Origin: an uncultured Bacteroidales bacterium
Lineage (GTDB): Bacteria; Bacteroidota; Bacteroidia; Bacteroidales; Paludibacteraceae
Length of the DNA stretch: 64,000 nt
Direction of reading: 5' to 3'
NCBI GenBank assembly: GCA_902766045.1
Contig: CACXCA010000051.1
Location: forward strand, 62,001 to 126,000
How positions within the stretch are numbered: position 1 is the stretch's first letter; every line of letters starts with the position of its first letter. Under the pieces are notes generated by a model that was given only the letters and a program-made list of their open reading frames with translations, made no database searches and was not told the origin of the DNA. A program made the translations under genes and the position numbers. This document shows, one piece after another, positions 9,755 to 54,584 of this stretch.

Positions 9755-9827
9755 AACTTTCGAATCTCGCATTGTGAATGATTGCAATTTAATCCTCTCT
9801 GCAATCGCGGCTGCACGGTTCAAGGTT
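9755..9827 (+). ncRNA. Candidate ribosomal-protein leader RNA before rpsD
   Basis: The rpsK-rpsD gap can fold. An outer stem pairs 9755-9764 (AACTTTCGAA, one bulged C) with 9819-9827 (TTCAAGGTT). A short helix can pair 9767-9770 with 9807-9810. An inner perfect 7-bp hairpin pairs GATTGCA (9780-9786) with TGCAATC (9800-9806). The last helix ends 21 bases before the rpsD ATG. S4 is a known autoregulator in other phyla, so an S4-binding leader is the natural reading. This is an inference from base pairing only. Confidence 0.5.
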
Positions 9828-9848: not shown

Positions 9849-10454
9849 ATGGCTAGATACACAGGTCCAAAAACTAAGATTGCACGTCGTTTTGGAGAAC
9901 CGATCTTCGGTCCAGATAAAGTTTTAGCAAAAAGAAACTTCCCTCCTGGACAACATGGTGTTAATAGAAGAAAGAAGTCTTCTGAGTACGGTATTCAGTT
10001 GAACGAGAAGCAAAAGGCTAAATATACTTATGGCGTTTTAGAAAGACAATTCCGTAATTTGTTCGAGAAAGCTTCTGCAACAAAGGGTATTACCGGTGAG
10101 GTATTATTACAATTATTGGAGACTCGTCTTGATAATGTAGTTTATCGTTTAGGTATAGCTCCTACAAGAGCAGCAGCTCGTCAGTTAGTGTCACACTGCC
10201 ACATCGTTGTCGATGGTGAGGTAGTTAATATTCCTTCGTACTCAGTTAAACCAGGACAAGTTGTTGGCGTTCGTGAGAGATCAAAATCTCTTGAGGTGAT
10301 AGAAAATGCTTTGTCTGGTTTCAATCATAGCAAGTATGCTTGGTTAGAGTGGGATGGATCTTCTTTGTCTGGAAAATTCTTGCATCTTCCTGAAAGAGCT
10401 GATATTCCAGAAAATATTAAAGAACAATTGATCGTCGAACTTTACTCTAAATAA
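9849..10454 (+). CDS. rpsD: 30S ribosomal protein S4
   Basis: This 201-residue protein begins [21 protein letters not shown] and has the S4 RNA-binding domain ([42 protein letters not shown]) at about residues 91-135. S4 nucleates 30S assembly and is a translational autoregulator in several bacteria. It follows a gap of 116 bases that looks structured. rpoA begins 10 bases after its stop. Confidence 0.97.
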
Positions 10455-12121: not shown

Positions 12122-12829
12122 ATGAAATACAAACGTATTTTATTGAAACTGAGTGGTGAGTCCTTAATGGGTGCTCAGGGGTATGGTATTGATGAAAATA
12201 GACTTTCTGAATATGCGGATCAAATAAAAGAGATTGCAGGTCTGGGCGTTCAGATTGGTATTGTAATCGGTGGTGGAAATATCTTTAGAGGATTGTCTGG
12301 CTCCAAAAAAGGATTTGATAGAGTCAAAGGTGACCAAATGGGTATGCTGGCTACTGTTATTAATGCGTTGGCTCTTAACTCCGCATTGGTGGCTGTAGGT
12401 GTGAAATCTAAAGTGCTGACTGCAATACGAATGGAACCTATTGGCGAATTTTATTCAAAAGATAAAGCAATCGAGTCTTTAAATGCTGGTTATGTTACCA
12501 TCTTTGCTGCGGGTACTGGTTGCCCATATTTTACAACAGATACAGGTTCTTCTTTGAGAGGTATTGAAATTGAAGCTGATGCTATGTTTAAAGGTACTCG
12601 TGTGGATGGTATATACACGGCTGATCCAGAGAAAGATCCGACTGCTACTAAGTATGATGATATTTCATATGACGAGATACTTAGACAGAATCTTAAAGTG
12701 ATGGATCTGTCGGCTACGGTTATGTGTCGTGACAATAATTTGCCTATCGTGGTATTCAATATGGATAAGGTCGGTAATCTGAAAAAGGTTATCTTAGGTG
12801 AAAATATTGGTACGTATGTCCATCCGTAA
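12122..12829 (+). CDS. pyrH: Uridylate kinase (UMP kinase)
   Basis: This 235-residue amino-acid-kinase-fold enzyme phosphorylates UMP to UDP with ATP. Motifs seen are MKYKRILLKLSGESLMG at the start, IGIVIGGGNIFRG at about residues 45-57, GDQMGMLATVINALAL, and FTTDTGSSLRGIEIEADAMFKGTRVDGIYTADP in the nucleotide-binding half. Length is normal for bacterial PyrH. It appears monocistronic, between the ribosomal terminator and the leu leader. In many bacteria pyrH sits next to frr; frr is not here. Confidence 0.97.
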   Translation: MKYKRILLKLSGESLMGAQGYGIDENRLSEYADQIKEIAGLGVQIGIVIGGGNIFRGLSGSKKGFDRVKGDQMGMLATVINALALNSALVAVGVKSKVLTAIRMEPIGEFYSKDKAIESLNAGYVTIFAAGTGCPYFTTDTGSSLRGIEIEADAMFKGTRVDGIYTADPEKDPTATKYDDISYDEILRQNLKVMDLSATVMCRDNNLPIVVFNMDKVGNLKKVILGENIGTYVHP

Positions 12830-12915: not shown

Positions 12916-12947
12916 TTTGGAGTTTTAATTAAAAGCACATAAATTTG
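12916..12947 (+). promoter_or_regulatory. Promoter of the leu operon
   Basis: TTTG at 12916-12919, a 20-base spacer and TAAATTTG at 12940-12947 form a near-perfect Bacteroidota promoter. Transcription from about 12953 would give a leader of about 200 bases that holds the peptide ORF and attenuator described next. Upstream, 12830-12878 contains GGTGATT...AATCACC, a weak hairpin after pyrH without a T tract. Confidence 0.65.
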
Positions 12948-12999
12948 TCCCGTTAAAATTCAAATACGGAGTAGATTTTTTATAAAAAAGAAAAAAAGT

Positions 13000-13062
13000 A
13001 TGCTATTTATAATTAACATTAACATTATTTTCATTATTCTCTTGCGTAGCATGAGGAAGTGA
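13000..13062 (+). CDS. leu/ilv leader peptide (attenuator control peptide)
   Basis: This ORF of 20 codons plus TGA starts at the ATG at 13000. Seven of the 20 residues are Ile (codons 4, 5, 7, 9, 10, 12, 13) and three are Leu (codons 2, 14, 15); the peptide then ends Arg-Ser-Met-Arg-Lys. The tandem Leu codons CTC TTG (13039-13044) lie about 10 bases before the antiterminator arm, and the stop codon lies inside that arm. This is the geometry of ribosome-mediated attenuation. The composition fits an operon for branched-chain amino acids. No homologue search was possible. Confidence 0.75.
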   Translation: MLFIININIIFIILLRSMRK

Positions 13063-13128
13063 GAATGTGTGTGTTATATTTAAAGATATTGAGCCTTTCT
13101 CACTTCCTGTGAGAAAGGCTTTTTTTTT
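13054..13128 (+). promoter_or_regulatory. Transcription attenuator of the leu operon
   Basis: Two mutually exclusive structures are visible. The terminator is a perfect 12-bp stem, AGCCTTTCTCAC (13092-13103) with GTGAGAAAGGCT (13109-13120), loop TTCCT, followed by a run of T to 13128. The antiterminator is a perfect 12-bp pairing of AGGAAGTGAGAA (13054-13065) with TTCTCACTTCCT (13097-13108), which uses up the terminator's 5' arm and loop. A ribosome stalled at the Ile/Leu codons leaves 13054-13065 free (read-through). A ribosome reaching the stop at 13060-13062 covers it (termination). Confidence 0.85.
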
Positions 13129-13153
13129 ACGGTGTTTTTAAATTTATACATAT

Positions 13154-14656
13154 ATGAGCGATAGATTATTTATTTTTGACACAACGCTTCGAGATGGAGA
13201 GCAAGTTCCTGGTTGCCAGTTGAATACAATTGAAAAGATTCAAGTGGCAAAACAATTGGAATTGTTAGGTGTTGATGTTATTGAGGCAGGATTCCCTATT
13301 TCCAGTCCTGGCGATTTTAATTCTGTTATTGAAATTTCTAAAGCGGTAACATGGCCTACGATTTGTGCATTAACAAGAGCAGTGGAAAAGGACATCGATG
13401 TGGCTGTAGATGCTTTAAAGTTTGCAAAACACAAGCGAATACATACGGGTATTGGAACATCTGATTTGCACATTAAGTATAAATTTAATTCCACCCCAGA
13501 AGAGATCATTGAAAGAGCTGTTTCGGCGGTGAAATATGCTAAGAAATTTGTTGAGGATGTTGAGTTTTATGCGGAAGATGCGGGCAGAACAGACAATGAA
13601 TATTTAGCTCGTGTGACAGAAGCTGTTATCAAAGCGGGTGCTACAGTGGTTAATATCCCTGATACCACGGGATTCCGTATTCCTTTTGAGTATGGAGAGA
13701 AGATAAAGTATATTATGGAACATGTGGATGCTTTATCTGCAGGGAAGGCAATCTTATCTACTCATTGCCATAATGATTTAGGAATGGCAACGGCCAATAC
13801 TGTTGCGGGGGTTTTAAATGGTGCCCGTCAGGTGGAGGTGACTATCAATGGAGTGGGAGAGAGAGCGGGAAACACTTCGTTGGAAGAAATTGCCATGATT
13901 TTTAAAACTCATCCAGATTTAAATATTGAGACCAATATTAACACGACTAAGATTTATCAGACGAGTCGAATGGTTTCCAGCCTAATGAATATGCCTGTTC
14001 AGCCGAACAAGGCAATCGTTGGTAAGAATGCGTTTGCTCATTCATCTGGAATCCATCAGGATGGTGTTTTGAAAAATGCGGAAACGTATGAAATTATGGA
14101 TCCTAAGGATGTTGGAATCGATGATAATGCAATTGTTTTGACGGCCAGAAGCGGTCGCGCTGCATTAAAGCATCGTTTACATGTGTTAGGCGTTGATGTC
14201 GATGGAGAGAAACTCGATTCACTGTATGAGGAGTTCTTAAAATTAGCAGATAAGAAGAAAGAGTTGAATGATGATGATATCCTTATGCTTGCTGGTGTGG
14301 AAAGAACAAGAGACCATCACATCAAATTAGACTTCTTACAGGTTACAAGTGGTTTAGGTGTTCGTCCGGTTGCTAGCATCGGACTGGATATTGCAGGAGA
14401 AAAATTTGTCGCTGCATCATCTGGAAATGGTCCGGTGGATGCTGCAATCAAGGCTCTGAAAGTGATTATAAAAAGAAATATGTTACTCAAGGAATTTACG
14501 ATACAAGCCATTAATAAGGGAAGTGATGATATCGGAAAAGTTCACATGCAGGTTGAACATGATGGAGCTGTTTACTATGGATTTGGTGCAAACACTGATA
14601 TCGTAACGGCTTCTGTAGAGGCGTATATTGATTGTATTAATAAATTTAGAAAGTAG
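13154..14656 (+). CDS. leuA: 2-isopropylmalate synthase
   Basis: This 500-residue enzyme condenses acetyl-CoA with 2-oxoisovalerate, the first committed step to leucine. The HMGL-like TIM barrel starts with [18 protein letters not shown] (residues 6-23) and contains [16 protein letters not shown], the metal-binding HxH motif region. The C-terminal LeuA regulatory domain follows ([29 protein letters not shown]), so leucine feedback inhibition is likely. It starts 26 bases after the attenuator T run and is the first structural gene of the operon. Confidence 0.96.
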
Positions 14657-14679: not shown

Positions 14680-16074
14680 ATGGGAAAAACATTATTTGAT
14701 AAAATATGGGATGCTCATGTCGTGTCTCAGATTGAGGATGGACCTACCGTCCTGTATATAGATCGCCTTTACGGTCACGAGGTGACCACTCCTCAGGCTT
14801 TTGACACACTTAGAGATAAGGGTATAAAGGCTTTCCGTCCGGAACGTATCGTGGCAATGCCTGACCATAACACTCCGTCAGATCAGCAGGATGAAATTCA
14901 TGATCCTGTGGGGAAAAAACAGGTGGAGACATTAAAGGCGAATTGCCAGGAGTTTAATATTAAACACTTCCCTATGGGGTCGAAAGACAATGGAATTATC
15001 CATGTTGTTGGTCCTGAAAAGGCTCTTTCTCTTCCTGGAATGACTATTGTGTGTGGCGATTCTCATACCTCTACTCATGGCGCTGTTGGTGCGATTGCAA
15101 TGGGTATCGGAACGAGTGAGGTGGCTCAGGTCTTGGCTTCTCAGTGTATCCTTCAGTCTAAACCTAAGACGATGCGTATAAACATTGAGGGTACGTTGAA
15201 TCCAGGTGTGACGGCTAAGGACGTTGCTCTTTATATCATGGCTAAAATGACAACATCTGGGGCAACGGGTTATGCTGTTGAATATGCAGGTAGTACAATT
15301 CGTAATATGTCGATGGAAGGTCGTCTGACCCTTTCCAACTTGTCAATCGAAATGGGCTCTCGTGCAGGATTGATTGCCCCTGATGAAACTACATTCGCTT
15401 ACTTGAAAGGTAGAGAATATGCGCCTAAAGGGAAAGAATGGGATGAAGCTGTGGAGCGATGGAGAAAATTGAAGAGTGATGACGATGCGGTATTTGACAA
15501 AGAGGTTACTTATCGTGCGGAAGATATTGAACCTCGTATCACTTATGGTACGAATCCAGGTGCAGGTATCGCTATTAATGAGTCAATACCTACTTTGAAT
15601 GAGATTCCATCTTCTGAAAAGACTCAGTTTGTAAATATGTTGGAATATATGCAGTTGAAAGAGGGACAAAAGTTAGAAGGTGTTCCTGTCGATTATGTCT
15701 TTTTAGGTGCTTGTACCAATGGAAGAATCGAGGATTTCCGTGCATTTGCATCGATCGTTAAGGGAAGGAAGAAGGCTCCTAATGTAGTCGCTTGGTTGGT
15801 GCCAGGCTCATGGTTGGTTCGTCAGCAAATCATAGATGAAGGTATCGATGTTGTTCTAAAAGAGGCTGGCTTTGAACTGAGATTACCATCATGTTCTTCT
15901 TGTTTGGCCATGAATCCTGATAAGGTGCCTGCTGGTAAGTTAGCTATTTCCACAAGCAACCGTAATTTCGTCGGTCGTCAAGGTCCGGGCGCACGTACGG
16001 TATTGGCATCACCTTTGGTGGTTGCGGCAAGTGCAGTTACAGGAAAAATCACGGATCCAAGAAAATTAATATAA
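14680..16074 (+). CDS. leuC: 3-isopropylmalate dehydratase, large subunit
   Basis: This 464-residue aconitase-family subunit carries the 4Fe-4S cluster. Its ligands are Cys in [12 protein letters not shown] and the pair in [26 protein letters not shown] is a further family signature. With LeuD it isomerises 2- to 3-isopropylmalate, and the same enzyme handles citramalate in the pyruvate route to isoleucine. It lies 23 bases after leuA. A 138-base gap with a palindromic repeat separates it from leuD. Confidence 0.96.
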
Positions 16075-16127: not shown

Positions 16128-16155
16128 GTAGAGACGCAATGCATTGCGTCTCTAC
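16128..16155. repeat. Palindromic repeat, copy 1 (ATGCAT centre)
   Basis: This perfect 28-base palindrome has arms GTAGAGACGCAATG / CATTGCGTCTCTAC. It sits in the leuC-leuD gap inside the operon. The outer ten bases are shared with the repeats at 46532 and 54541, but the centre differs (AATGCATT here, ACGGCCGT there), with both sides changed together. It could form a hairpin in the leu mRNA. Confidence 0.85.
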
Positions 16156-16212: not shown

Positions 16213-16839
16213 ATGAGTAAACAAAAATTTGATATAATACAGTCAACATGTATTCCTATTGGAATCGATAATTGCAACACGGATCTGATTATCCCTGCTC
16301 GTTATTTAGCGAGTACGACGCGCGATCCGAAGTTCTTCGGAGATGCTTTCATGCGTGATCTTCGTTATGATGAAAACGGGAATGTTAAGCCAGATTTCGT
16401 GATGAACCATCCTGATTTTTCGGAGACTCCACATAAGGGCGTCCATGAGATTATCGTAGGTGGACAGAACTGGGGCTCCGGTTCGAGTCGTGAACATGCC
16501 GCTTGGGCTATCGCAGGTTATGGCGTACGGGTTGTGATTTCCAGTAGTTTTGCTGATATCCATAGAAACAACCTTCTGAATTGTTTTGTGCTCCCTGTCG
16601 TTGTTAGTCGGGAGTTTCAACAGGAACTTTTCAAAAGCATAGAGGAAAATCCTAAGATGCAAGTCAGAGTTGACGTGCCCAATCAAACAGTAACCAATCT
16701 GGCTACGGGACACAGTGAACATTTTGAAATAAATAGTTACAAGAAATATTGTCTGATGAATGCTTTGGATGATATCGATTTCTTGCTCGAAAATAAAGAG
16801 AAGATAGAGGAATGGGAACAGAAAAGGGAAAATATGTAA
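16213..16839 (+). CDS. leuD: 3-isopropylmalate dehydratase, small subunit
   Basis: This 208-residue swivel-domain subunit pairs with LeuC. The family signature GGQNWGSGSSREHAAWAI lies at about residues 85-102, preceded by DNCNTDLIIPARYL near the N terminus. The length is normal for the LeuD of facultative leucine pathways. Its 3' end overlaps the next synthase gene by 28 bases, so the two are translationally coupled. Confidence 0.95.
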   Translation: MSKQKFDIIQSTCIPIGIDNCNTDLIIPARYLASTTRDPKFFGDAFMRDLRYDENGNVKPDFVMNHPDFSETPHKGVHEIIVGGQNWGSGSSREHAAWAIAGYGVRVVISSSFADIHRNNLLNCFVLPVVVSREFQQELFKSIEENPKMQVRVDVPNQTVTNLATGHSEHFEINSYKKYCLMNALDDIDFLLENKEKIEEWEQKRENM

Positions 16840-18383
16840 CAATAATGGACACGACACTCCGTGATGGGGAACAAACCAACGGAGTGAGTTTCGTGCCACA
16901 TGAGAAGTTGATATTGGCACGCACCCTCCTTTTGGACGCTAATGTAGATCGAATAGAGGTGGCATCAGCTCGCGTGAGTGATGGAGAAAAAGAGGCGGTC
17001 TCAATGATTTGCAATTGGGCAAAGAGTGTGGATTGTCTTCATCGAATTGAAGTGTTGGGTTTTGTTGATGAAACTTCAAGTATTGATTGGATAAAGGAGA
17101 CGGGATGCCAGTGTGTCAATTTGCTTGTGAAAGGATCACTCAGACATTGCTCTGAGCAATTGAAAAAAAGTCCGGAAGAGCATCTTCATGATGTTTTGGA
17201 CACTCTTTCATACGCGCAAAAACAGGGTATGCGAGTTAACCTCTATTTGGAGGATTGGAGTGGTGGCATAAAGGATAGTGCGGAATATGTATTCTTTTTG
17301 ATGGATCATCTTAAAGATCAGAAGATAGAACATTTTATGCTTCCTGACACGTTGGGTATATTGACGCCAGATCAGACCTATCGTTGTGTGAAGTTGATGA
17401 CCGATCGTTATCCTAATCTCTCGTTCGACTTCCATGCGCATAATGATTATGATTTTGCTGTGGCAAATGCGATGGCAGCGATACAGGCGGGTGCTAATGG
17501 TTTGCATACAACCATCAACGGGTTGGGCGAACGGGCAGGTAATGCTCCTTTGGCAAGTGTTCAAGCTGCACTGAAAGATCATTATCATGTTCAAACTGGC
17601 ATTAATGAGTCCAAATTAATGGAGATATGTCATTTGGTTGAGTCGTATAGCTGCATCGCAATACCACCGAATAGACCTGTCGTGGGAGAAAGTGTCTTTA
17701 CACAAGTGGCTGGTGTACATGCGGATGGTGATAACAAATCGGGATTGTATTGCAACGGTTTACTTCCTGAACGCTTTGGTAGGAAACGCGAATATGCGTT
17801 GGGCAAAAATAGCGGGAAAGCCAATATCCTTAAGAACCTTGAGGAGTTGGGACTTGCCCTTACACCTGAGCAGACAAAGGCTGTCACAAAACGAATCATC
17901 GAGTTGGGGGATAAAAAGGAACTCGTTACGCAAGAAGATCTCCCTTATATAGTGGCCGATGTGGTTAAACATTCTGCCCCTGATGATCATGTGAAGTTGG
18001 ATAGCTACATGGTGAGCACCAGTTATGGACTAAAGCCGTTGGCCAGTGTTCGTCTTGAGATTGATGGAAAATCTTATGAAGAGACTGCAACGGGTGACGG
18101 ACAATATGATGCGTTCGTTCGTGCGGTAAGACATATCTATCGAGATAAATTACAACGTAAATTTCCTTGGTTGACAAACTATGCTGTAAGCATTCCACCC
18201 GGCGGTCGTACCGATGCCTTGGTGCAAACCAGTATCTCATGGACATTCGATGGGAAAAGTTATCGAACGAGAGGTTTGGATGCCGACCAGATGGAAGCAG
18301 CTATCAAGGCAACCTTTAAAATGTTGAATCTGATAGAGGACTTGTACACACAAGCGCCTGAGAGAACGAAAGAAAATAAATAA
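16812..18383 (+). CDS. Second isopropylmalate-synthase-family enzyme, probable citramalate synthase
   Basis: This 523-residue protein has a full HMGL-like barrel ([18 protein letters not shown] near residues 10-27, DFHAHNDYDFAVANAM in the metal-binding region) and a LeuA-type regulatory C-terminal domain (VKLDSYMVSTSYGLKPLASVRLE). The sequence departs strongly from the LeuA at 13154, so it is not a recent duplicate. In Bacteroidota such a gene between leuD and leuB is usually taken as citramalate synthase (acetyl-CoA plus pyruvate, first step to isoleucine). A 2-isopropylmalate or homocitrate role cannot be ruled out from sequence. The ATG at 16812 lies within leuD. Confidence 0.8.
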   Translation: MGTEKGKYVTIMDTTLRDGEQTNGVSFVPHEKLILARTLLLDANVDRIEVASARVSDGEKEAVSMICNWAKSVDCLHRIEVLGFVDETSSIDWIKETGCQCVNLLVKGSLRHCSEQLKKSPEEHLHDVLDTLSYAQKQGMRVNLYLEDWSGGIKDSAEYVFFLMDHLKDQKIEHFMLPDTLGILTPDQTYRCVKLMTDRYPNLSFDFHAHNDYDFAVANAMAAIQAGANGLHTTINGLGERAGNAPLASVQAALKDHYHVQTGINESKLMEICHLVESYSCIAIPPNRPVVGESVFTQVAGVHADGDNKSGLYCNGLLPERFGRKREYALGKNSGKANILKNLEELGLALTPEQTKAVTKRIIELGDKKELVTQEDLPYIVADVVKHSAPDDHVKLDSYMVSTSYGLKPLASVRLEIDGKSYEETATGDGQYDAFVRAVRHIYRDKLQRKFPWLTNYAVSIPPGGRTDALVQTSISWTFDGKSYRTRGLDADQMEAAIKATFKMLNLIEDLYTQAPERTKENK

Positions 18384-18402: not shown

Positions 18403-19464
18403 ATGAAATTAAAAATTGCCGTATTACCAGGAGATGGTATAGGACCAGAAATCTCTGAACAAGGAGTCAATGTAATGACTGCCGTATGTAATAAGTTTGG
18501 ACACGAAGTGAGTTATACTCATGCTATATGTGGAGCCGATGCAATAGATAAAGTAGGGGATCCATTCCCAGAAGAGACCTTTAAGATTTGTATGGAGGCA
18601 GATGCAGTACTCTTTTCTGCCGTAGGTGATCCTAAGTTTGATAATAATCCTGCTGCCAAGGTGCGTCCTGAACAAGGATTGTTGGCAATGCGTAAGAAAT
18701 TAGGATTGTTTGCTAATATTCGTCCGATACAGACTTTTGATTGTTTGATTCATAAAAGTCCGCTGAAAGATGAGTTGGTGAAAGGTGCTGATTTCATCTG
18801 TATCCGTGAATTGACGGGTGGTATGTATTTTGGAGAGAAGAAAGAGGGAAGTGATTTTGCATACGACACGAATGCGTATAGCAGAGAAGAGGTAGAGCGA
18901 ATTTTGAAGGAGGCATATAAATATGCACGTCAGCGCAGAAAACATTTGACAGTTGTGGATAAGGCCAATGTGTTGGCATCTTCTCGTTTGTGGCGTAAGG
19001 TGGCACAAGAGATGGCTCTCCAATATCCAGATGTGACGACTGATTTCATGTATGTTGACAATGCAGCAATGCGCATGATTCAGGAACCAACATTTTTTGA
19101 TGTGATGGTGACGGAGAACACTTTCGGTGATATCCTTACAGATGAGGGTTCTTGTATTACAGGTTCAATGGGCTTGCTACCTTCCGCATCGACAGGAGAA
19201 CACACACCGGTGTTTGAACCGATTCATGGATCATGGCCGCAAGCAAAGGGTTTGAATATTGCCAATCCGTTGGCTCAGATCCTTTCGGTCGCTATGTTGT
19301 TCGAATATTTTAATTTGAAAGAGGAAGGGAAATTGATTCGAGAGGCTGTTGATGCTTCCTTAGATGCTAATGTCCGTACACCAGAAATCCAGGTTGAGGG
19401 AGGTGCTAAGTATGGCACAAAAGAAGTGGGACAGTGGATTGTGGATTATATTAATAAGAAATAA
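18403..19464 (+). CDS. leuB: 3-isopropylmalate dehydrogenase
   Basis: This 353-residue NAD-dependent decarboxylating dehydrogenase oxidises 3-isopropylmalate. Signatures are [10 protein letters not shown] at the start, [10 protein letters not shown] at about residues 130-139, and [27 protein letters not shown] containing the metal and substrate ligands. It is the last gene of the operon, 19 bases after the second synthase, and a terminator follows. The same enzyme can act on 3-methylmalate in the citramalate route. Confidence 0.96.
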
Positions 19465-46516: not shown

Positions 46517-46531
46517 CTGTAATACACGTTG

Positions 46532-46557
46532 TAGAGACGCACGGCCGTGCGTCTCTA
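46532..46557. repeat. Palindromic repeat, copy 2 (CGGCCG centre)
   Basis: This 26-base perfect palindrome has arms TAGAGACGCACGG / CCGTGCGTCTCTA. It shares the outer TAGAGACGC with the copy at 16128 and the entire core with the copy at 54541. It lies between convergent genes and is followed by the conserved block at 46582-46664. Confidence 0.85.
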
Positions 46558-46581
46558 TCCTATATATCGTGTTTATTTTAT

Positions 46582-54540: not shown

Positions 54541-54584
54541 ATATAGGGGTAGAGACGCACGGCCGTGCGTCTCTACCCCTATAT
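54541..54584. repeat. Palindromic repeat, copy 3 (44-base perfect palindrome)
   Basis: Both 22-base arms are perfectly complementary: ATATAGGGGTAGAGACGC plus ACGG on the left and its complement on the right. The core matches copy 2. It starts seven bases after the stop of the 53409 gene and leads into the conserved block at 54588. Confidence 0.9.

Follow-up and report, generated by a model that had tools for sequence, protein, structure and literature searches.

A probable ribosome-mediated transcription attenuator with isoleucine and leucine codons upstream of the leu operon in a Paludibacteraceae genome

The leu (leuL), ilvGMEDA (ilvL) and trp attenuators of enterobacteria combine a leader peptide rich in regulatory codons with mutually exclusive 1:2, 2:3 and 3:4 helices. 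In these attenuators the leader stop codon lies in arm 2, a terminator with a U tract follows, and an amino-acid operon stands downstream. Other systems have been described as well. The branched-chain amino-acid attenuator of Staphylococcus aureus has a leucine-rich peptide, according to a passage of PMC5794164. In actinobacteria, a section of PMC1262725 describes a LEU element with a Leu-codon ORF upstream of leuA, and ORFs with Ile/Val/Leu codons together with terminators upstream of ilvB. For Flavobacterium psychrophilum, one section of PMC9723704 gives hints that amino-acid operons are attenuated through leader peptides, and an excerpt of PMC7366714 notes short ORFs within long 5' UTRs of B. 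thetaiotaomicron. Serial attenuators are known from Salmonella mgtCBR, as outlined in part of PMC3641672.

The window analysed here, a stretch of 64,000 nt from a Paludibacteraceae genome, has a 324-nt gap between pyrH (12122-12829) and leuA (13154). The gap holds a promoter, a 20-codon ORF, an antiterminator and an intrinsic terminator, with the following features.

12916..12947, + strand: promoter of the Bacteroidetes type (TTTG at 12916-12919 and TAAATTTG at 12940-12947, spacing 20 nt)
13000..13062, + strand: leader peptide ORF MLFIININIIFIILLRSMRK (codons 13000-13059, stop codon TGA 13060-13062)
13039..13045, + strand: arm 1 of the 1:2 (protector) helix, formed by the last Leu codons; partner 13049-13055, from covariation
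13049..13055, + strand: 3' side of the 1:2 helix, overlapping arm 2, from covariation
13054..13065, + strand: arm 2, the 5' half of the antiterminator, containing the leader stop codon (perfect 12-bp repeat; covariation)
13092..13108, + strand: arm 3 and loop (terminator 5' half 13092-13103; antiterminator 3' half 13097-13108)
13109..13120, + strand: arm 4, the 3' half of the terminator (perfect 12-bp repeat; covariation)
13120..13128, + strand: U tract (U9) of the intrinsic terminator, read from the sequence

The leader (ATG CTA TTT ATA ATT AAC ATT AAC ATT ATT TTC ATT ATT CTC TTG CGT AGC ATG AGG AAG TGA) has seven Ile and three Leu codons among its 20. Its ATG is preceded by an A-rich stretch without a Shine-Dalgarno-like sequence; Bacteroidota are largely without Shine-Dalgarno starts. 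The spacing and sequence of the promoter fit the Bacteroidetes pattern of -33 TTTG and -7 TAnnTTTG. A scan for E. coli-type promoters missed it and returned one weaker site, at 13013-13040 (3.3 expected). Antiterminator (AGGAAGTGAGAA at 13054-13065 with TTCTCACTTCCT at 13097-13108) and terminator (AGCCTTTCTCAC at 13092-13103 with GTGAGAAAGGCT at 13109-13120) are both perfect 12-bp inverted repeats, and they are mutually exclusive because both use 13097-13103. The terminator ends 25 nt before the start of leuA. The first-pass annotation had placed the 20-codon leader with its seven Ile and three Leu codons, both perfect 12-bp helices and the promoter correctly to the base. A third helix, absent from that annotation, belongs to the system: the last Leu codons pair with arm 2, with one U-U mismatch in the window genome, in the counterpart of the 1:2 protector helix of trp-type attenuators. 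A UGUGUG stretch (13068-13079) was also observed 3' of arm 2 (GTGTGTAT) and in the consensus of 32 relatives; it lies outside the three counted helices and, in the predicted fold of the window genome, could extend the 1:2 helix.

Among dinucleotide shuffles of 12950-13090, an ATG ORF of 15-24 aa with at least 10 Ile+Leu arose in 4 of 5000. Such a composition is not unique, however: of 573 ORFs of 15-30 aa that begin with ATG anywhere in the window, counting both strands and nested starts, 4 reach 50% Ile+Leu. The fold of 12960-13135 had a z-score of -5.7, none of 200 shuffles being equally stable, and the window had 36 (overlapping) 12-mer inverted-repeat matches within 80 nt against 1 in a single shuffle. 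At gathering score, Rfam, including Leu_leader (RF00512), gave no match to the window leader, nor to any of 15 related loci in which leu leaders and other amino-acid leaders were mixed, and the T-box model had no match in the window. Phe_leader reached 16.5 bits on the window leader (gathering score 55). At E ≤ 10 the leader had 17 matches, all sub-threshold, of which the best, with E 0.0017, was to the opposite strand. The BTnc201 match (23.5 bits against a cut-off of 105) was rejected, as this sRNA, MasB, is unrelated to the leader. Elsewhere in the window, a known element, the S4-Bacteroidia ribosomal protein leader (Rfam RF03139, 48.7 bits), was found at 9780-9813, directly before an ORF at 9849.

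Conservation was assessed in 91 leuA upstream regions, drawn from 42 of 61 relatives and from the 66 of 158 genomes of the order having a leuA match; they contain near-identical strains and one duplicated locus (L023, L064). A terminator was called in 79 of the 91, the remaining 12 having no terminator or being too short. A strict leader (at least 14 aa with at least 8 Ile+Leu, just upstream of the terminator) was present in 54 of the 79 and missing in 25, against 2.1 expected when the pre-terminator region was shuffled; a lenient filter was passed by 57 of the 79 (12.0 expected from the same shuffle). For six leaders that the filter had missed or mischosen (L043, L047, L050, L051, L057, L060), the ORF was assigned manually from the sequence. 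In 53 of 55 leaders, TAnnTTTG lay at most 80 nt upstream of the ATG (4.5 expected from shuffles). Relative to base composition, Ile was 2.2-fold and Leu 1.7-fold in the 55 leaders, with Val at 0.3, Phe at 0.5 and Met at 0.45; the ORFs had been chosen by their Ile+Leu+Val content, a choice that leaves the low Val unexplained. The scarcity of Val and Phe speaks against a membrane peptide, plain hydrophobicity or a simple A+T bias. Across the 55 leaders the peptide sequence drifts and the codon type stays. The leader before leuA is not universal: of 80 leuA loci in named genomes, 34 passed the leader filter, 16 had no terminator, 29 had a hairpin without a passing ORF and 1 was too short. In the set L213-L289, from rumen Bacteroidaceae and Prevotella-like genomes, an LRL motif was common to many leaders, and several had a Cys-containing tail after the regulatory codons.

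The best contiguous antiterminator pairing of the stop-codon region with the 5' arm of the terminator beat shuffles (p ≤ 0.05) in 41 of 55 leaders and was no better than shuffles in 14; when the segment used was too short for long leaders, the count was 30 of 55 at p ≤ 0.05. Median scores over the 55 leaders were 20.8 for cognate, 16.5 for non-cognate and 13.6 for shuffled pairings. Measured from the last base of the stop codon, arm 2 began at -10 to +5 nt in 41 leaders and 12-27 nt upstream in the other 14. The two antiterminator arms co-vary in close relatives (UUCUCACUUCC with GGAAGUGAGAA) and in other relatives (GCCAUUCUCAC/GUGAGAAUGGU, CGUCUCGA/UCGGGACG, AGCCCCCU/AGGGGGUU).

Helices were further compared in an alignment, A1, of 32 of the 55 leaders (31 distinct), hand-picked and mostly with a UUCUCAC-type terminator. 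Here 90% of terminator cells were paired, with 21 double-change cells against 4.8 in shuffles. For the antiterminator the values were 80% and 22 against 8.3, and for the 1:2 helix (columns 37-43 with 51-57) 73% and 30 against 11.3. Sliding the partner by 1-3 columns lowered the percentage paired, the double-change cells and the covariation score of all three helices. By the count of double-change pairs, the shuffles gave 0/500 for the terminator, 9/500 for the antiterminator and 126/500 for the 1:2 helix, which is not exceptional by this measure. Against the shuffles and the slid controls together, all three helices of A1 covary. RNAalifold recovered the terminator alone from A1, as expected where helices compete. 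An alignment of related leuA upstream regions was the check proposed by the first-pass annotation; in these regions the Ile/Leu codon type is conserved, and the alternative pairings are conserved and covary, the opposite of the sequence outcome that it had named as refuting its claim.

The window leader is very probably a ribosome-mediated transcription attenuator, one that would sense charged tRNA-Ile and tRNA-Leu together and set read-through into leuA-leuC-leuD-cimA-leuB. What the sequences show is its parts, their conservation and covariation, and a tie between leader codons and operon content. We infer that transcription would start near 12954 and that a ribosome would begin translating the leader at 13000 as RNA polymerase proceeds. 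If Ile-tRNA or Leu-tRNA were scarce, the ribosome would stall on the Ile/Leu codons (13003-13044), open the 1:2 helix and free arm 2 (13054-13065). Arm 2 could then pair with arm 3 (13097-13108) ahead of the synthesis of arm 4, and polymerase would read on into the operon. With both amino acids ample, the ribosome would reach the stop codon within arm 2 and mask that arm; arms 3 and 4 would form the terminator, and transcription would end. If the leader were not translated, 1:2 and 3:4 would form, a default off state.

Predicted folds agree with these steps, as a consistency check and not a proof, the ribosome footprints having been placed by hand. The antiterminator (-20.1 kcal/mol) was predicted for a ribosome stalled at the Ile codons with polymerase having reached 13108, and the terminator (-21.6 kcal/mol) for a ribosome at the stop codon. 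The ribosome-free prediction had a 1:2-type hairpin plus the terminator (-47.4 for the whole leader). For a stalled ribosome with polymerase past the U tract, the terminator was predicted at -24.1 and the antiterminator at -21.1. Since the terminator is predicted to be 3 kcal/mol better once arm 4 exists, even with arm 2 free, the switch would have to be kinetic. A kinetic decision is usual for attenuators. The conserved, covarying parts speak for the earlier claim of an attenuator before the leu operon; the phrase 'translation control' used with it does not apply, as the control proposed is transcription termination.

The genes that would be regulated follow in the order leuA-leuC-leuD-cimA-leuB.

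13154..14656, + strand: leuA, 2-isopropylmalate synthase, the first regulated gene (TIGR00973, 655 bits, above cut-off)
14680..16074, + strand: leuC (TIGR00170, 610 bits, above cut-off)
16213..16839, + strand: leuD (TIGR00171, 146 bits, above cut-off)
16812..18383, + strand: cimA-like (R)-citramalate synthase, Ile branch (CimA, NF042433, is the best family at 628 bits, below its cut-off of 950)
18403..19464, + strand: leuB (TIGR00169, 430 bits, above cut-off)

The cimA-like protein has HMGL-like and LeuA_dimer domains, the latter a LeuA-type allosteric domain. The closest named match to leuA, at 99% identity, was from the MAG Paludibacteraceae bacterium RGIG7865 (water-buffalo reticulum), which makes a rumen member of the Bacteroidales the most likely source of the window. 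A threonine dehydratase was not found in the window genome, either among its 8 PLP-family proteins (five cysteine-synthase-like proteins, TrpB, a TrpB-like protein and the threonine synthase ThrC) or with the ilvA model (79 bits at most, cut-off 379), so LeuCDB probably make isoleucine too. Most likely isoleucine is made from citramalate via LeuCDB, and the leu operon most likely serves both leucine and isoleucine. The leader would read both amino acids because LeuC, LeuD and LeuB act in leucine synthesis and would also, downstream of citramalate synthase, act in that of isoleucine. The genome's own ilvD had no terminator call in the 450 nt upstream. Palindromes on GTAGAGACGC were observed at 16128-16155, in the leuC-leuD gap, and at 46531-46558 and 54549-54576 (7 matches in the window with at most 1 mismatch, 1.2 expected); a similar palindrome precedes leuC in G182.

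The leader codons followed operon content across genomes. Among pooled distinct leaders, at least 3 Ile were present in 70 of 72 with cimA in the leu operon and in 2 of 20 without it (Fisher 6e-15, a value that ignores kinship). This cut-off was picked after the misses of a prior prediction had been seen; at the cut-off of that prediction, at least 2 Ile, the counts were 72/72 and 8/20. Left out were L005, L006, L014, L060, L063 and L099, in which cimA would lie beyond a contig end or in the missing part of an incomplete genome, and L030, which has no real leader; L217, L220, L227 and L242, which had failed a filter of 30% Ile+Leu+Val, were added as low-Ile leaders before the cimA test. The prediction, written beforehand, used 37 of the 80 named-genome loci, L221 (a 9-aa ORF) having been dropped in advance. 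All 10 low-Ile leaders were without a compact cimA, which was not detected, lay over 6 kb away, or was on a different contig or strand; 22 of the 27 high-Ile leaders had cimA 2-3 kb downstream. Each of the five misses (L213, L216, L223, L225, L226) carries exactly 2 Ile beside 5-8 Leu. A leuA tree of 85 rows shows 5 changes of the operon trait and 7 of the Ile trait. Corrected for phylogeny, 3 supported independent pairs (5 in all) remained; Ile follows cimA in 2.7 of 3 on average, occasionally in the opposite direction, and the pairs are too few for significance in a sign test (p 0.25), which would take at least 6. These 3-5 contrasts appear to run mostly in the predicted direction.

Single families gave closer comparisons; for the statements on f26 and f5, cimA and ilvA were searched in 80 of the 90 listed genomes. 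In f26, a leader was readable by eye in 7 of the 14 genomes having leuA. Five of them (G205, G200, G216, G199, G217) have a cimA-like match about 2 kb after leuA and leaders with 4-8 Ile; at the thresholds applied, G061 and G213 gave no cimA-like match, and their leaders contain 0 Ile, with 6 Leu in G061 and 11 in G213. The leaders of G205 (MNSIILSLSIIGLTLSK, cimA) and G061 (MNTTLLSLSLTSGLTLSK, no cimA) look orthologous and differ chiefly at the Ile codons. On the tree, leuA from G213 does not group with the others of f26. In G182, leuA stands alone behind a leader with 9 Leu and 0 Ile, and a cluster of an ilvD-like ORF, ilvB, leuC, leuD, cimA and leuB has two successive leaders with Ile, Leu and Val. 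G528 and G529 have a Leu leader at leuA and an Ile leader at a separate leuC-leuD-cimA cluster (MTMYSTIINSIIILSLRISCSE in G528, nearly identical in G529). Among 12 named-genome cimA clusters apart from leuA, a fitting leader was found in these two genomes only, and none was seen upstream of the separate leuC or cimA of G043, G153, G158, G054, G040, G151, G078, G104 and G088. Val averaged 9.2% in leaders with ilv genes in the operon (n=7) vs 1.5% in the others (n=51), the G058 leader being left out of this count.

Joint sensing of Ile and Leu, which the first-pass annotation had suggested, fits the content of the leuA-leuC-leuD-cimA-leuB operon, and the rule linking codons to operon content backs it with exceptions: L092 and L093 (family f5) have leuA with leuC and leuD, cimA elsewhere and no ilvA match and are still Ile-rich, and L011 and L260 have cimA and only 2 Ile. 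An attenuator sensing leucine alone, with the Ile codons as filler in an A+T-rich genome, we consider unlikely. The Leu codons (13039-13044) are indeed those nearest arm 2 and lie within the covarying 1:2 helix, A+T-rich DNA favours ATT and ATA, and leaders with Leu alone do exist. Filler codons are hard to reconcile, however, with Ile at 2.2-fold the expectation from composition, with the scarcity of Ile codons where cimA lies elsewhere than in the leu operon or was not detected, and with the G205 and G061 leaders, which within one family differ chiefly at those codons.

Similar leaders with terminators stand before other amino-acid genes elsewhere in Bacteroidota. R1, a covariance model of the leu leader, matched 48 of 296 genomes of the phylum (E ≤ 0.01, strict filters); in its own genome it scored the leu leader at 111.8 bits, the reverse strand of that leader at 33.5 bits and one place at 23.1 bits (E 3.7). 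Twenty-seven further loci (L184-L210) were read, the best-scoring and not a random sample, for which the evidence covers leader and terminator only. The leader peptide fits the next long ORF in 24 of the 27, ORF identity being assigned by HMM, in some cases at domain level only or for partial proteins. The fits comprise trpE (5, W-rich), hisG (1, HHHHHH), an aspartokinase/homoserine dehydrogenase-like gene (1, Thr+Ile), ilvE-like genes (6), ilvN (2), ilvD (5), ilvA (2, Ile), PAPS/APS reductase (1, Cys, with the gene start about 460 nt past the terminator) and O-acetylhomoserine sulfhydrylase (1, Met+Cys). L187 was unreadable, and L207 and L210 do not fit. At L190, L194, L195, L199, L205 and L208, runs of Thr/Ile, Cys, Trp, Met/Cys or His codons were seen before matching genes. 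Two leader-terminator units in series were present in 7 of 21 loci examined (L185, L186, L188, L191, L193, L198, L203), all before ilvE-like or ilvN genes, and also at L128 (G182, before the ilvD-like ORF). The two peptides are near copies at L185 and differ at other serial loci. Serial units could possibly give multiplicative control.

The breadth of these fits also bears on a constitutive early terminator, whose product would be a stable small RNA or functional peptide and which would involve no amino-acid sensing. The strong ribosome-free fold that is predicted, terminator included, suits such an element, and terminated leader RNAs can appear as small RNAs. We nevertheless regard it as very improbable: a plain terminator needs neither the antiterminator nor the 1:2 helix, both of which covary, and in 24 of 27 other loci the make-up of the peptide follows the enzyme encoded downstream, while peptide sequence drifts. 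Least credible of all is translational attenuation of leuA by the leader codons, or a protein binding UGUGUG between arms 2 and 3, for which GTGTGTAT after arm 2, in the consensus and outside the three counted helices, could speak, but the U-tract terminator is conserved, covaries and ends 25 nt before leuA, and UGUGUG can extend the 1:2 helix in the window genome.

Beyond the single attenuator before leuA, the loci suggest, with somewhat better than even likelihood, a phylum-wide attenuation regulon in Bacteroidota, with leader peptides that would mirror operon content as an evolvable read-out, coding scheme, serial attenuators and coupling included. In this regulon, leaders would carry Leu codons only where leuA stands alone or isoleucine comes from threonine, Ile+Leu before leu-cimA operons and Ile+Leu+Val before ilv-leu operons; Trp, His, Thr+Ile, Cys and Met+Cys leaders would precede the respective operons, at times as two attenuators in series. 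Such a regulon would imply tight coupling of ribosome and RNA polymerase in Bacteroidota. The first-pass annotation had called the mechanism unusual for the phylum, which does not hold: leader-terminator units precede several Bacteroidota amino-acid operons, and clues had already been given in the F. psychrophilum section of PMC9723704. In the literature searched we recognised no description of this leader, of a tie between Ile+Leu codons and citramalate synthase, or of serial amino-acid attenuators, a weak negative given that few subscription journals were covered. If the regulon is real, Bacteroidota, a dominant gut phylum, would run amino-acid synthesis by coupled transcription and translation, as enterobacteria do. 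Leader codons would offer a genomic read-out of the amino acids that an operon serves, which here agrees with isoleucine made by way of citramalate. Leaders of the Leu-only, Ile+Leu and Ile+Leu+Val types would form a natural mutant series for multi-amino-acid sensing.

Among described systems, the S. aureus attenuator likewise has a branched-chain amino-acid leader peptide, in a different phylum (passage of PMC5794164). The actinobacterial LEU element, as presented in the section of PMC1262725, differs in being a pseudoknot between the Leu run and the Shine-Dalgarno box of leuA, whereas in the window leader the terminator would decide. The F. psychrophilum candidates are from the same phylum and also precede amino-acid biosynthesis operons, several of their 5' elements being without an Rfam match; the section concerned in PMC9723704 names neither a leu leader nor a codon rule.

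The proposed mechanism is that of the textbook leader-peptide attenuator, of which the leu leader described here would be an additional member. It differs from the enterobacterial leaders in its mix of Ile and Leu codons, where those carry Leu alone or Ile+Leu+Val, and in the lack of a Shine-Dalgarno-like sequence before the leader ATG; unlike the enterobacterial leu operon, the operon downstream includes citramalate synthase. With the enterobacterial attenuators it shares the codon-bearing peptide, the three exclusive helices, the stop codon in arm 2, the terminator and the amino-acid operon that follows.
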